From NCBI GenBank assembly GCA_937128595.1, contig CAKZMO010000137.1:1-40945 (forward strand): 40,945 bases of DNA. The letters are read 5' to 3'. The notes beneath the pieces were generated by a model. It was not told the DNA's origin. It was given only the letters and a program-made list of their open reading frames with translations, and made no database searches. Source of the stretch: an uncultured cyanobacterium. GTDB taxonomy: Bacteria; Cyanobacteriota; Cyanobacteriia; CAKZMO01. A program made the translations under genes and the position numbers. Position 1 is the first letter of the stretch; every line of letters begins with the position of its first letter. Of this stretch, positions 4,738-31,189 are shown piece by piece.

Positions 4738-5049
4738 CTACGACACGATGGCAAGAATATCTTTCTCGGACAACAGAACGTATTCGTCGCTGCCTAACTT
4801 GATATCAGTTCCGGCATATTTGGAGTACAGCACCTTGTCACCTACGCTGACTTCCATCCCCTGGCGCGACCCGTCATCGTTGCGCTTACCTGGGCCTACT
4901 TGAACAATTTCACCTACTTGAGGCTTTTCTTTTGCGCTATCAGGCAAAAAGATGCCGCCAGCTGTCTTTTCTTCTGATTCGCTGATTTTTACAAACACGC
5001 GATCGCCCAAAGGCTTAACGGTTGAAACACTTAAAGATACTGCTGCCAT
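4738..5049 (-). CDS. groES: Co-chaperonin GroES
   Basis: This is the 10-kDa co-chaperonin that forms the heptameric lid on GroEL. At 103 residues it is the usual cyanobacterial length. The sequence [12 protein letters not shown] begins the conserved beta-barrel, and the stretch [20 protein letters not shown] (about 25-44) contains the mobile loop with the GG-I-F/L contact motif. The C-terminus [14 protein letters not shown] is typical. A GAGG sequence 7-10 bases before the ATG serves as ribosome binding site. It is the first gene of the groESL operon and lies unusually far (about 290 bases) from the CIRCE element. Confidence 0.97.
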
Positions 5050-5533
5050 AGAAACCTCGTCGGATATCGATATGTATGCGAAAACTACTGTGGATTGCTT
5101 AGCTTAGAGATTTTGAGAATGACCGCTCGGCATGACAGATTCGCGTTAACAAACGTAGAGTCAGATTTTATGCCGAGAACTGGTGATCTCTATGGAGTGA
5201 TAGTTTGGAACAAAGACTTATTGAAGATAGGCAAACGAGAAGTTAAACTTCGAATCAGAATTGGTACCATCAATCGATGCGCCAGATGACGACCTAACCT
5301 ATCACTGTGACTCCCTTTACCAAGCCGGAAATGATTTTAGCACTCCCTAAGACAGAGTGCTAACTTATGAAGCTAATGTAGCGGATTCTGGAATTCGGAC
5401 GCAATGGTTCCGTGAGTACGGGTTCCCGCCCTAAGGCTGTCTCCAGCTCTGTGTATTATTTCGAAGCGCCGAGTCTTTTACCATTTGAGAATCGAAACAA
5501 TCGTGCAATGTTTGTCTAGCTAGGGTTTCAAAA
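5050..5533. other. Divergent regulatory region groES / acyP
   Basis: This 484-base stretch holds the CIRCE operator at 5337-5363 and a predicted groES promoter overlapping it. Between the operator and the groES start lies about 285 bases of non-coding leader. The plus-strand frame at 5095-5289 has no family resemblance and lies antisense to the leader, so I do not call it a gene. Confidence 0.6.
5334..5363 (-). promoter_or_regulatory. CIRCE operator with overlapping groESL promoter
   Basis: The segment 5337-5363 is a perfect CIRCE: TTAGCACTC, nine bases, GAGTGCTAA. CIRCE is the binding site of the heat-shock repressor HrcA. On the minus strand an extended -10 (TGCTAAAAT, hexamer at 5334-5339) sits on the downstream half. 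A TTAGCA resembling a -35 lies 18 bases upstream of that hexamer, inside the other half. Bound HrcA would therefore block RNA polymerase directly. The predicted start near 5327 would give a leader of about 280 bases. The promoter assignment is inference; the operator match is exact. Confidence 0.9.
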
Positions 5534-5845
5534 ATGACTACTACGGATAGCGAGACCAACCCAGTGACAGACGACCTCGTTAGTGCCCATGTCTTTGTCT
5601 CTGGGCGAGTACAAGGTGTAGGGTACCGAGCTTCGACGACTGATGCAGCTGCGTTGCTCAAAATTAATGGATGGGTTCGCAATCTTCGGGATGGCCGAGT
5701 CGAGGCTTTGTTCGAAGGATCAGCCGATCAAGTCGAAGAGATGATTCGCTGGTGCTACAAAGGGCCGCCTAGCGCTGTTGTGAGGGATGTCCACGTAGAT
5801 TATGTAGAACCCAGCCAAGCAAAAGGCTTCCATATCGCTCGCTAG
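5534..5845 (+). CDS. acyP: Acylphosphatase
   Basis: This small enzyme hydrolyses carboxyl-phosphate bonds such as acetyl phosphate and 1,3-bisphosphoglycerate. The 103-residue protein has the signature GRVQGVGYR, with catalytic Arg32 in the phosphate loop, and Asn50 in WVRN, 18 residues later as in the family. The core spans about residues 16-103, and the first 15 residues are a polar extension. FVSGRVQGVGYR has Tyr where many family members have Phe. The gene is divergent from groES and about 170 bases from the CIRCE element, but nothing shows shared control. Confidence 0.93.
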   Translation: MTTTDSETNPVTDDLVSAHVFVSGRVQGVGYRASTTDAAALLKINGWVRNLRDGRVEALFEGSADQVEEMIRWCYKGPPSAVVRDVHVDYVEPSQAKGFHIAR

Positions 5846-5877
5846 GCTTGGGGATAAAAACTATCCCAAAAAAGCGC

Positions 5878-26338: not shown

Positions 26339-26836
26339 TTATGCGGGGTCAGATTCTTCTTCTGCCTGGGCTTGGGTCAGTCGGGGATCGCTTACTTGAG
26401 CACTGGCGATCGCATTTCCCTGAGCTTGGATGAAGCGTGCCCATCGAATCGCCAAATCCATCTCTGTAAATGGAATGGTGATGGTTGAAGCGTCTTTCAT
26501 GTGCAACTGTAGATTTGCCTGCTTTGCACGATCAGGCGGGCTATCCCAATCGATGGGTTGTCCTCTATCTGTTACCTGTACATCGTCAATGTCTCTTAAC
26601 CAGCACTGCTGGAGTTCAATCGGGCCCCGACGAGTCGGTTTTCCCCAAACAACCAAATTTCCCTTAAGACCCAACACAGAGTAGATATCATACTTCGCCT
26701 GATCCAAAGTCTGTGCCCAGACTTTGTAAGACTCCAGCTTTTGATATTCGCTCCAGCCAGCCCACGCTAAGCCGATAAAGACTACCAACAGCGGCAACCA
26801 TAGCAACCCTCGTGTCATCTCATACTCCCCAATCAC
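26339..26836 (-). CDS. Cyanobacterial membrane-anchored protein upstream of ftsQ, unknown
   Basis: I recognise no named family. The protein has one N-terminal membrane helix (about 8-26, GLLWLPLLVVFIGLAWAGW) followed by a soluble domain of about 120 residues. That domain has WAQTLDQAKYDIYSVLGLKG, NLVVWGKPTRRGP and a helix ending MDLAIRWARFIQ. A second ATG at residue 7 (26818, MTRGLLWLP) is the likelier start, giving 159 residues. It precedes ftsQ on the same strand with a 61-base gap, so a role in the envelope or division is possible but only suggested by context. In many bacteria ddl precedes ftsQ; no ddl is seen here. Confidence 0.7.
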   Translation of the reverse strand: MIGEYEMTRGLLWLPLLVVFIGLAWAGWSEYQKLESYKVWAQTLDQAKYDIYSVLGLKGNLVVWGKPTRRGPIELQQCWLRDIDDVQVTDRGQPIDWDSPPDRAKQANLQLHMKDASTITIPFTEMDLAIRWARFIQAQGNAIASAQVSDPRLTQAQAEEESDPA

Positions 26837-27006: not shown

Positions 27007-28788
27007 ATGAAGCGGCTTGTCTGGACTATTTTATTTTTTGTGGGATTGTTTTGGGCTTTGGCTACATTCTCAGGATTAGCCAATCGAGGAACCTACGAGT
27101 CCCTGATTCTCGACTTTCGGGACGACGTTTCGTCCGAACAGGTCAATCAGCAACTTGGAGCGATCGCCCAGCAATTTAGTGTCGATCCCCACCTCAACAG
27201 CGCGTTTTCTGAGCAAGACCATGTGTATGTGGTCAAAGGCGATCGCCAACTATTAAAAACGTTGCGACGATCAGAGGTGAAAGAGCTTCTGGAATACGCG
27301 GAACCCAACTATATTTATTCGCTGCAGTCTCCTCCCAACGATCCCGACTATACAAAACAGTGGAACTTCCGCAGCATCAACGTTGAAGCCGCTTGGGCTG
27401 ATACTCAAGGCGAGGGGATCACCGTCGCTGTCATCGACACAGGTGTGAGTCCTGTTCCTGACCTGGAACAAACCAATATCGTGGAAGGCTACGACTTCGT
27501 CAACCAGCAAAAAGAGGCTCTGGACGACCACGGCCACGGAACCCACGTCGCTGGAACGATCGCCCAATCGACCAACAACAACATGGGTGTAGCAGGCATC
27601 GCTTACAAAGCCAACATTATGCCGCTCAAGGTATTGGCCGCCGCAGGAGGCGGTACGGTAGCCGACATTGCTGAAGCGATCCGCTACGCTGCTGACCACG
27701 GAGCCGATGTCATCAACATGAGTTTGGGTGGGGGCGGCGATAGCAAGCTGCTGAGTGATGCGATCGCCTATGCCCACAGCAAAGATGTCGTCATCGTAGC
27801 AGCGGCAGGAAACGCAGGCACAAATTCAGCGTCTTATCCAGCTCGATACGACCAAGTCATTGCCGTCTCTGCTTTAGACTCGGCTGGAGCAAAAGCGCCA
27901 TACTCAAACTATGGCGCAGGAGTCACCATCTCAGCTCCTGGAGGCTCAACCGCAGCAGGCGAAGACGGCGGCATTTTGCAAAACACCATTGATCCCCAAA
28001 CAGGAGATTCCACGTTTCGAGCCTTTCAAGGCACAAGCATGGCCGCACCTCACGTGGCTGGTGTTGCGGCTCTGGTCAAAGCGTCAGGCATTGACGATCC
28101 CGACCAAGTGACAAAGATTTTATATGAATCGTCACGAAAACTAGAGAACGATGAGTTGAACTATTTTGGTTCGGGTCAACTCGATGCGGCGGCAGCAGTG
28201 ACACTTGCGAGCCAGAACAATCTATCTTTTCGCGATTTCTTTCGTTGGCTACGGCACAACGGCTATCTTAGCCTCAGATTCTGGTTTGACGGCGGGGTGG
28301 TGTCTTTGACGCCAAAGATTCTCATGGTCGTCGGAGCCTATCTCTTGAGCTGGCTGCTGCGAGTTTATCTACCTGCGGTGTGGGGTGGCTTTTTCACCAG
28401 CGGTCTTGTTTTCGGCAGCGCAGGACTATTTCTACTGCGAGGGCTTTATGTGTTTGACCTACCCCAGTGGCCTTTGCGAGTGGCGGGGAGTTCTTTGCCT
28501 GAGCTAGGGACAGCCGTGCAAGGCAGCAACGTCTTGAATCCAATTACGGCGAGTGTACTGATTCCGTTTGCATTACTGGCACTGTTGTTGTCTCACAACT
28601 CTCTGAAGTGGTTAGCCTTTGGCACAACCCTAGGCGTGGCATCTTGTTTAGCCGTCAGCGCAGTGCTTGATCCCACAATGGCTTGGCTGGGGAGTGGGGC
28701 GATCGCCCGCAGCTATCTTGGGATCAATGCCCTGCTATGCTTCATACTGGCGTATCTCGCACTCAAAGCGGAGGCAGAAGGAGTATGA
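27007..28788 (+). CDS. Subtilisin-like serine protease with C-terminal membrane domain
   Basis: This 593-residue S8 peptidase has an N-terminal membrane helix or signal peptide (about 4-25), a propeptide-like region (30-105) and a complete catalytic domain (about 115-400). The catalytic Asp144 is in VAVIDTG, His177 in HGHGTHVAG, the oxyanion Asn269 in AAAGN, and Ser344 in GTSMAAPHVAG. Unusually, residues from about 430 contain four to five hydrophobic segments. These would anchor the protease in the membrane, probably with the catalytic domain outside the cytoplasm. Its stop overlaps the next gene's start (ATGA), so the two are translationally coupled. Confidence 0.93.
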   Translation: MKRLVWTILFFVGLFWALATFSGLANRGTYESLILDFRDDVSSEQVNQQLGAIAQQFSVDPHLNSAFSEQDHVYVVKGDRQLLKTLRRSEVKELLEYAEPNYIYSLQSPPNDPDYTKQWNFRSINVEAAWADTQGEGITVAVIDTGVSPVPDLEQTNIVEGYDFVNQQKEALDDHGHGTHVAGTIAQSTNNNMGVAGIAYKANIMPLKVLAAAGGGTVADIAEAIRYAADHGADVINMSLGGGGDSKLLSDAIAYAHSKDVVIVAAAGNAGTNSASYPARYDQVIAVSALDSAGAKAPYSNYGAGVTISAPGGSTAAGEDGGILQNTIDPQTGDSTFRAFQGTSMAAPHVAGVAALVKASGIDDPDQVTKILYESSRKLENDELNYFGSGQLDAAAAVTLASQNNLSFRDFFRWLRHNGYLSLRFWFDGGVVSLTPKILMVVGAYLLSWLLRVYLPAVWGGFFTSGLVFGSAGLFLLRGLYVFDLPQWPLRVAGSSLPELGTAVQGSNVLNPITASVLIPFALLALLLSHNSLKWLAFGTTLGVASCLAVSAVLDPTMAWLGSGAIARSYLGINALLCFILAYLALKAEAEGV

Positions 28789-29015
28789 GTCAGAGCATCA
28801 CCATTGAAGGTACGGTTCAAAAATCAGCCATGGGAACAGGCACATGGTCTTTGGTCGGCGGTGGGCGCACCTATGAAATTTTCAAAGGCCAGCCTCAGGA
28901 CATGTTGAAAGAAGGCAATCGGGTGCGGGTCACTGGACGCGTTCGTGATGATGTGATGACGCTTGCGATGATCGGCCCAGTCTTGGAAGTCGAAAACTTC
29001 GAAGAACTGTCTTAA
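28785..29015 (+). CDS. Small OB-fold-like protein coupled to the subtilase
   Basis: The 76-residue protein (MSQSITIEGTVQKSAMGTGT...) alternates short strands (TIEGTVQKS, WSLVGGGRTYEIF, GNRVRVTGRVRDDVMTLAMIG, LEVENFEEL). This is a small beta-barrel pattern like bacterial OB-fold proteins. GGAG lies just before the ATG. The ATG overlaps the TGA of the protease gene, which implies translational coupling. I see no signal peptide, so it is probably cytosolic, on the opposite side of the membrane from the protease domain. The function is unknown. A longer frame beginning at 28683 lies inside the protease gene and is not the real start. Confidence 0.75.
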   Translation: MSQSITIEGTVQKSAMGTGTWSLVGGGRTYEIFKGQPQDMLKEGNRVRVTGRVRDDVMTLAMIGPVLEVENFEELS

Positions 29016-29071: not shown

Positions 29072-29995
29072 ATGCCTCACACTGAAGCAACTCCCTCATT
29101 TCTTGTTCCTGGCACCCTTTGGGACAAGATCAAAACTCAAACTCAACATGCACTCGACATCGGAGCGCTGCATTCGATTCCAACTCAGTATGAGTTCATC
29201 ACAGATGGAGGGATCGAATTTGTGGTGCGATCGCTCGACAACATTGCCCGCAAAGAAAAAGCCCGCAAGCAACAAACGCAGGCTAGCTCCGAGGGCAAGC
29301 CGAACAATCCCTTCCTTCCATACGAAACGAATCTATTTGTCAGCAACCTTTCAGACTCTCACCTCTGTCTACTCAACAAATACAATGTGGTCGATCATCA
29401 TTTGCTGATTGTGACCCGAGCCTTTGAAGAACAAGAAACCTGGCTCAACTCCCGCGACTTTGAAGCACTGTGGCGCTGCATGGCAGAAATAGACGGCCTC
29501 GCCTTTTACAATGGTGGCCAGGATGCAGGAGCAAGTCAGCCTCACAAGCATTTGCAGCTCGTGCCCATGTCTCTGACGCCTGGAACGTGTGATATTCCCG
29601 TAAATAGCTTGATTCACAGCAAGCCTGACATCGACCCATCGCCTCTCCAGTCAATTCAAGCGTTTCCATTTCCTCATGCAGTTAAAGAATATCGCCTTGA
29701 CTCTCATCTCTCAATCCAAGAAGCAACGGCAACATTAATCGAGACCTATCGTCAACTAGTCCACGAGCTCGAATTGGGAACGGTGCAAGAGGGCGATCGC
29801 CAAACAGGCGCTTACAACTTACTTGCAACACGACGCTGGATGATGCTAGTGCCGCGATCGCAAGACCGCTTTGCCTCGATTTCTGTGAACTCTCTAGGAT
29901 TTGCCGGATCTCTTTTCGTCTCGACTGAAAAACAAATGAAGACCCTCAAAGATCTGGGCCCAATGACAGTGTTGCAAAATGTCGCATGGTCATAA
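29072..29995 (+). CDS. ATP adenylyltransferase (Ap4A phosphorylase)
   Basis: This enzyme splits diadenosine tetraphosphate with phosphate into ATP and ADP and can act on related nucleotides. The 307-residue protein has the family layout: NPFLPYETNLFVSNLS (about 79-94), the LLIVTRAFEEQE segment, and the HIT-like active site GGQDAGASQPHKHLQLVP. In it His158, His160 and Gln162 form the H-x-H-x-Q motif. The C-terminal YNLLATRRWMMLVPR stretch is also typical. It follows the OB-fold-like gene after 56 bases in the same direction, so all three may form one transcription unit. It probably clears stress-related dinucleotides in the cytosol. Confidence 0.93.
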   Translation: MPHTEATPSFLVPGTLWDKIKTQTQHALDIGALHSIPTQYEFITDGGIEFVVRSLDNIARKEKARKQQTQASSEGKPNNPFLPYETNLFVSNLSDSHLCLLNKYNVVDHHLLIVTRAFEEQETWLNSRDFEALWRCMAEIDGLAFYNGGQDAGASQPHKHLQLVPMSLTPGTCDIPVNSLIHSKPDIDPSPLQSIQAFPFPHAVKEYRLDSHLSIQEATATLIETYRQLVHELELGTVQEGDRQTGAYNLLATRRWMMLVPRSQDRFASISVNSLGFAGSLFVSTEKQMKTLKDLGPMTVLQNVAWS

Positions 29996-30156: not shown

Positions 30157-30372
30157 ATGCTAAATGCCATGTTGAAACGAACAGGAAAAAGCGAACCCTC
30201 TTCGCCCTACGAAGCCATTGTCAAAGGCCTTGAACAGAGAGGAATGTCATCTGACAAACTACAAGAGCCGACTGCACCAGAGGACCTGAGCAGCCGTAGC
30301 GTATTTCCTCATGAGCAAAGCCGAGAACCAGGACTTTACGACGCCGTCCTCACCCGACACGACAAGCGATAA
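30157..30372 (+). CDS. Small hypothetical protein before the SDH-type protease
   Basis: From the ATG at 30157 this encodes about 71 residues. There is a basic N-terminus (MLNAMLKRTGKSE), a helical stretch (PYEAIVKGLEQRGMSSDKL) and a C-terminus GLYDAVLTRHDKR. That end looks like conserved protein rather than random translation. I know no function. The frame can start upstream at 30127 with another start codon. Its end overlaps by 62 bases a longer possible start of the next gene. That overlap argues that either this frame is spurious or the next gene starts at 30392; I prefer the latter. Confidence 0.5.
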   Translation: MLNAMLKRTGKSEPSSPYEAIVKGLEQRGMSSDKLQEPTAPEDLSSRSVFPHEQSREPGLYDAVLTRHDKR

Positions 30373-30391
30373 ACATTCGTTCACTCGACGA

Positions 30392-31189
30392 ATGTCATTT
30401 CCTAGAACCCCAGAATTGCCTATTCAATCCCCTAAATATTGGGTCAAGGAAAAAGATCGCTATTTGCGCCAAATCTTGATCGAAGACATTCAAGATTTGA
30501 CGGGTCGAGCTCTCGTCGTCTACTTCACGAATAAGGGAATGCTGGACTACCGAGATGCTGATGATATCTCGGAAGTTTTGGATGACTGTCATAGTCATGA
30601 CATCGATTTGCTGCTGCAAACTCCCGGAGGCGTCGTTGATGCCTGCGAGAAAATCATCAGCGTCTTGCGGCTGCGAGGAGGAGAATACCGTGTCGTCATT
30701 CCAAGCTGGGCCAAGAGCGCAGGCACGATTATTGCTCTATCGGCCAGCAGCATTGTCATGGGGGTCAACTCAGAACTAGGGCCTATCGATCCTCAGTTCA
30801 ACGGCATCCCCGCAGAGTTTATTCGCGATGATCCCGACGAGAAATACCCTTACAAGCAAATCGCTGAAAGCGCGATTAGCCGGACTAAAAAGCTAGCAAA
30901 TCAAGTCCTCAGCAAAGGCATGCTTAAAAAGGGTGATCCTACTGAAGTCGAAAATCTCGTGAATCAGCTCTCATCGGCTCAGCGCTATGCTTCTCACGGT
31001 GCCGTCATCAACGTTGAAGACGCAAAACACTTGGGTTTGAACATCACCTATCTAGAGCCTCGCTCTGCTCTCTGGCAAAAGATATGGTTGCTTTACTGCA
31101 TGTACGACTTTGACTGTCAACGACAAAATTACGCCAAAATTTTTGAGGGTTCGCGAGTCAGTATTGCTCGTCCGCTTTCCAAAAAGTAA
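30392..31189 (+). CDS. SDH-type serine protease (ClpP-class, SDH_sah family)
   Basis: This cytosolic ClpP/crotonase-fold protease is of the family named after serine dehydrogenase proteinase. From the ATG at 30392 it has 265 residues. It shows LVVYFTNKGMLDYRDADDI, then LLLQTPGGVVDACE (the glycine loop), and SWAKSAGTIIAL with nucleophile Ser109. SELGPIDPQFNGIPA follows as in related ClpP/SppA proteins. An upstream start at 30311 would add 27 residues (MSKAENQDFTTPSS...), but these overlap the preceding small gene and look like its shifted reading. There is no signal peptide or membrane helix. A hairpin downstream probably ends the transcript. Confidence 0.88.
   Translation: MSFPRTPELPIQSPKYWVKEKDRYLRQILIEDIQDLTGRALVVYFTNKGMLDYRDADDISEVLDDCHSHDIDLLLQTPGGVVDACEKIISVLRLRGGEYRVVIPSWAKSAGTIIALSASSIVMGVNSELGPIDPQFNGIPAEFIRDDPDEKYPYKQIAESAISRTKKLANQVLSKGMLKKGDPTEVENLVNQLSSAQRYASHGAVINVEDAKHLGLNITYLEPRSALWQKIWLLYCMYDFDCQRQNYAKIFEGSRVSIARPLSKK

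Follow-up and report, generated by a model that had tools for sequence, protein, structure and literature searches.

A subtilase gene in an uncultured cyanobacterium ends in a multi-helix membrane domain and runs directly into the gene of a 76-residue protein, and this locus raises the question of whether the two products form one membrane protease with a part on either side of the membrane, or are neighbours with separate roles. Cyanobacteria use proteolysis on the outer and lumenal side of their membranes for photosystem repair and for quality control of the envelope, and few regulators of this activity are known. The locus lies in a stretch of 40,945 nucleotides (the window), and its features are collected in the table below.

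The positions of the subtilase and of the small ORF given in an earlier note on this sequence proved correct in an ORF check, as did the overlap of the protease stop with the start of the small gene, formed by an ATGA at 28785; the TAA of the small gene ends at 29015. Between 26700 and 30320 the count of promoter- and terminator-like sites did not exceed that of shuffled sequences, and none of these sites fell between the two genes. A ClpP-like SDH-type serine proteinase (PF01972, 73.1 bits) is encoded at 30311-31189 (+), 3' of the Ap4A phosphorylase gene and on the same strand. The assembly that holds the window consists of 801 contigs with an estimated contamination of 7.95%, and the rest of it is to be used with care.

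Features of the protease locus, with positions in the window
Feature	Position	Strand	Basis
S8 subtilase with C-terminal polytopic membrane domain, 593 aa	27007-28788	+	ORF; Peptidase_S8 and DUF5942 over Pfam cut-offs
N-terminal signal or anchor helix, residues 1-26	27007-27084	+	hydropathy; positive start
Subtilase catalytic domain, residues 135-390, D144/H177/N269/S344	27409-28176	+	Pfam E 8e-56; alignment
DUF5942 membrane domain, residues 404-590, five predicted helices	28216-28776	+	Pfam E 2e-89, hydropathy, low-confidence model, loop charges
Small OB-fold-like partner, 76 aa	28785-29015	+	ORF, conservation, model, fold comparison
Ap4A phosphorylase gene	29072-29995

The subtilase and its membrane domain

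The protease carries the Asp, His and Ser of the S8 family in order, and sequence comparison indicates an intact triad. In an alignment of 116 proteins, composed of that of the window, those of the cyanobacterial loci L002 and L003 and 113 others, the catalytic D, H and N were kept in 115 and the S in all 116, the lone exception (L119) being a shortened frame. The best NCBIfam match was to the mycosin model of type VII secretion (TIGR03921), at 231.3 bits below the cut-off of 278.75, and mycosin identity was rejected on this score. An anti-phage role of the pair was also rejected, as PADLOC returned matches only to its subtilase and IetS models, and none for the small protein.

The membrane tail is already on record as the Pfam family DUF5942 (PF19366), to which it was assigned at 298.9 bits against a cut-off of 23.8. 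Pfam names the family and lists no function, the match makes no mention of a dependent OB partner, and our literature search found no paper that names DUF5942. Hydropathy analysis predicted one hydrophobic segment at residues 1-26 and five within residues 429-593. A structure model of the membrane domain, built from three sequences, contained five long helices and short ones at a mean pLDDT of 59, and this low-confidence model placed the same five helices as hydropathy, with a short one ahead of them. The multi-helix tail put forward in the earlier note is therefore predicted by both approaches, and a soluble tail, which was named there as the observation that would speak against it, by neither. 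A fold search with the poor DUF5942 model returned no match under E 0.69.

Across the 116 proteins, positive charge prevails in loops 1-2 and 3-4, where acidic residues are almost absent, whereas loop 2-3 carries negative charge and loop 4-5 is neutral. The C-terminal tail has a slight positive charge, and the N-terminus of the protease is positive as well. From these charges we predict an external catalytic domain and a cytosolic C-terminus. The invariant positions of DUF5942 include F411, G419, W426, K437, G466, P489, S495, N511, P512, S516, P520 and N574, and since many invariant positions fall on the predicted outer side or within helices, the conservation pattern suggests that DUF5942 does more than anchor the enzyme.

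The small OB-like protein

The small protein has no leader, in line with the cytosolic location expected in the earlier note, and the same applies to the members of its family that were translated. In 33 members, G9, G19, W21, T59, G64 and V66 are invariant. A Pfam scan of the window's small protein placed no family over its cut-off; for DUF5818 (PF19135) it scored 15.3 bits against a curated cut-off of 27 bits, 25 of the 33 members matched at E up to 1 (best E 7.2e-8), and a rescan of seven members reached at most 26.4 bits. Curated NCBIfam names were of no use for this family.

A model of the protein, also built from three sequences, revealed an OB-like barrel at a mean pLDDT of 79. Since a Foldseek search with this model gave nothing under E 0.001, the OB assignment rests on fold comparison of the predicted model by VIA-align, which matched it to many OB folds at Z of about 7-8.5, among them single-strand DNA-binding proteins, NigD-like proteins, PriB, potempin A (Z 7.8) and others. 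The beta-barrel proposed from the sequence alone is thereby upheld, and these comparisons support an OB fold (a five-stranded barrel) in the modelled protein while saying little about its function.

GTDB genomes were scanned once with the small protein of the window, a search limited to close relatives, and five loci were obtained. L002 and L003 are cyanobacterial pairs, whereas L005 was discarded as an antisense chance match. The proteins of L004 and L006 (about 4743-5849) come from Acidobacteriota, are longer and have a hydrophobic leader; near the N-terminus they contain a segment that is OB-like and related to the small protein.

Linkage and co-occurrence of the two genes

The flanks of 115 DUF5942 matches were inspected, comprising those of 113 other genomes and two weak matches that were left out afterwards. 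A relative of the small protein was found downstream on the same strand in 80 loci, namely those of 78 other genomes together with L002 and L003; 37 of these show a 4-base overlap, three a 1-base overlap, one has the genes 2 bases apart and 39 have a wider spacing. Counted by genome and with the window's own included, linkage was observed in 79 of the 386 genomes searched, across 21 families, and the small gene thus lies 3' of the protease in 79 of the 108 genomes that contain both. The ATGA overlap is not universal: with start codons picked by a script rule, 36 linked genomes (window included) have a 4-base ATGA or GTGA overlap, three a 1-base overlap, one a gap of 2 bases and 39 a larger gap, of 43-303 bases except for one of 1036 bases that may contain another gene. 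Tight spacing occurs in 39 of the 78 other linked genomes (16 families), and of the 39 with wide spacing 35 belong to one family, f7.

DUF5942 was found over its cut-off in 114 of the 386 genomes of the phylum, that of the window included. When a profile of 33 small proteins (A1) was searched against the same genomes it matched 109, of which 108 were strong matches, and every one of these 108 genomes also encodes a DUF5942 protease. The remaining match (G053, L207 4803-5246; E 7.5e-6) is weak, has a lipoprotein-like start and comes from the same phylum but another class. A small gene commonly found without the protease had been named in the earlier note as evidence against coupling; no such case occurs among the 108 genomes, and the coupling of the two genes that it described proves strong.

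In 29 of the 108 genomes both genes are present but are separated in the assembly; in at least one of these (G199) both lie near contig ends, and an assembly break may account for the distance. Around the unlinked small genes (30 loci, from these 29 genomes and G053) a search for a hidden partner revealed no neighbour common to more than three groups other than the small gene itself. Conversely, six genomes (G076, G093, G105, G147, G183 and G268) contain the protease without a detectable small gene, and no diverged copy was found near their proteases. No protease residue was found to change in step with this loss; positions 501, 514 and 562 vary in two of the three lineages without the small gene, but also in a relative that keeps it.

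The phi coefficient between DUF5942 and the small protein was 0.963, against 0.502 between DUF5942 and Ap4A phosphorylase as a control. Fisher's test on the pair gave p of about 3e-87 but ignores relatedness, and for this reason better evidence comes from the five families (f7, f9, f16, f24 and f27) that hold both genomes with the two genes and genomes with neither. The window's class was taken to comprise 186 genomes, 174 of which match the profile of the divergent gene described below while 12 were listed as not matching it. A count by eye gave 72 class members with neither gene of the pair, and as 57 of these fall in a single family (f20), part of the co-occurrence is due to shared ancestry. 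With linkage in 79 genomes and co-presence in 108 of 108, the pair is nonetheless more than chance.

Two further neighbours were considered as third members and rejected. Ap4A phosphorylase, to whose proximity the earlier note had drawn attention, is incidental: it is present in 149 genomes, is shared by 87 of the 114 with DUF5942 and occurs in 62 without it. In the fetched flanks, some of which stop at contig ends, it appeared in only two of 117 loci (window left out), L145 (G093) and L146 (G076), 1.3-2.3 kb away and on the opposite strand. The divergent gene at 26339-26836 (-), whose small product has no Pfam match and carries a hydrophobic helix at its N-terminus, is near the protease in 56 of the 78 linked loci. 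As its profile matches 174 of the 386 genomes, including those of the pair-less family f20, we regard it as a gene of cyanobacteria in general whose position is conserved, and not as a dependent partner.

Interpretation of the pair and comparison with known systems

Based on these findings, we consider it somewhat more probable than its opposite that the locus encodes a two-gene cyanobacterial membrane protease, in which the small OB protein acts as a cytosolic accessory or regulatory subunit. The N-terminal helix would export the subtilase, whose activity would then be exerted on the periplasmic or lumenal side, and the five DUF5942 helices would keep it in the membrane with its C-terminus left in the cytosol. 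The small protein would remain cytosolic and dock on the cytosolic face of DUF5942; given the predicted sidedness, this contact may involve loops 1-2 and 3-4 or the C-terminus, and the docked protein would regulate or support the protease. The presence of the protease in all 108 genomes with the small protein, including the 29 in which the genes are unlinked, and the linkage across 21 families argue for this scheme, as do the five mixed families, the lower phi of the Ap4A phosphorylase control, the loop charges and the missing leader of the small protein. The six protease-only genomes, the 29 with the genes apart, the lack of protease residues that change with loss of the small gene and the poor DUF5942 model count against it. 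We favour control of the protease from the cytosolic side; the alternatives are that the small protein inhibits it, has a function of its own or serves in assembly alone. A bolder and distinctly tentative form of the scheme is a transmembrane signalling protease, in which a cytosolic OB sensor would control the outward-facing subtilase through the five-helix domain. This would amount to the NfeD layout realised independently and with two genes, and proteolysis in the periplasm or in the thylakoid lumen would then be switched by the state of the cytosol.

It is rather unlikely that the OB protein serves the subtilase as cognate inhibitor, or as a guard before export, and binds catalytic domains still in the cytosol. 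Such a role would resemble that of the potempins of Tannerella forsythia, small lipoproteins whose genes directly precede those of the KLIKK proteases and which are reported, in an excerpt of the source (PMC7296668), to inhibit the co-expressed protease; they show that a small protein whose gene adjoins that of a protease can inhibit it specifically. The fold matches include potempin A, but other OB folds match equally well, the gene order is the opposite, and the small protein is leaderless whereas the catalytic domain is predicted outside. An intact protease without the small gene in six genomes is also unlikely for an essential guard, and since the protease occurs without the small gene but the small gene was never found without the protease, an accessory subunit is favoured over such a guard. 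Mere co-inheritance, with the OB protein performing a separate job such as nucleic-acid binding, appears similarly improbable: the concentration of pair-less class members in f20 and the single-strand DNA-binding proteins among the fold matches would suit it, but adjacency in 21 families, the mixed families in which both genes were gained or lost jointly, and the absence of solitary small genes, a pattern that the Ap4A phosphorylase control does not share, argue otherwise, as do the relatives of the small protein found in proteins with hydrophobic leaders. Least probable in our estimate is a biogenesis factor that aids insertion or folding of DUF5942 and then leaves the mature protease. The tight spacing in half of the other linked genomes (39 of 78) would suit assembly during synthesis and the six genomes without the gene a dispensable helper, yet 29 genomes retain both genes apart from one another.

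With the pair, a conserved, uncharacterised membrane protease gains a partner gene that, at the level of sequence, strictly depends on it, which renders its control testable in model strains. A partner never found alone, together with a membrane enzyme present in many cyanobacteria, points to a two-part protease across the membrane.

Mycosins are membrane-tied extracytoplasmic subtilases with one helix, as opposed to the five predicted tail helices of the present protease. A likeness in layout is provided by NfeD1b, in which NfeD carries an N-terminal ClpP protease domain and for which a membrane-anchored OB fold is cited (excerpt of PMC2636767): both follow the order of serine protease domain, membrane helices and OB domain, although here the protease is an S8 subtilase rather than ClpP-like and the OB part is a separate gene. 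NfeD homology of the OB part was unsupported, as none of the 33 small-protein members matched Pfam NfeD at E up to 1 and hhalign against cyanobacterial NfeD gave a probability of 2.7%, in a weak test whose alignment held three wrong short reads (from L212, L213 and L221) and whose controls gave artefactual high scores over 4-8 columns in 3 of 15 runs.

The potempins share with the small protein a position beside a protease gene and, in potempin A, an OB-like match, but as exported lipoproteins encoded before the protease they form a class to which a leaderless protein encoded after it was not assigned; a literature search for potempin, OB-fold and inhibitor together found no paper. The cyanobacterial subtilisin-like protease A1379/slr0535 is listed as inner-membrane and was enriched by a PsbU-APEX2 probe in a 2020 study (excerpt of PMC7880944), and if it is a DUF5942 subtilase this location would agree with the predicted sidedness and offers a lead. 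Our search of titles and abstract openings found no paper on this pair, nor one that describes DUF5942 subtilases with a dependent OB partner. The protease belongs to two families already known, S8 and DUF5942, each over its cut-off.
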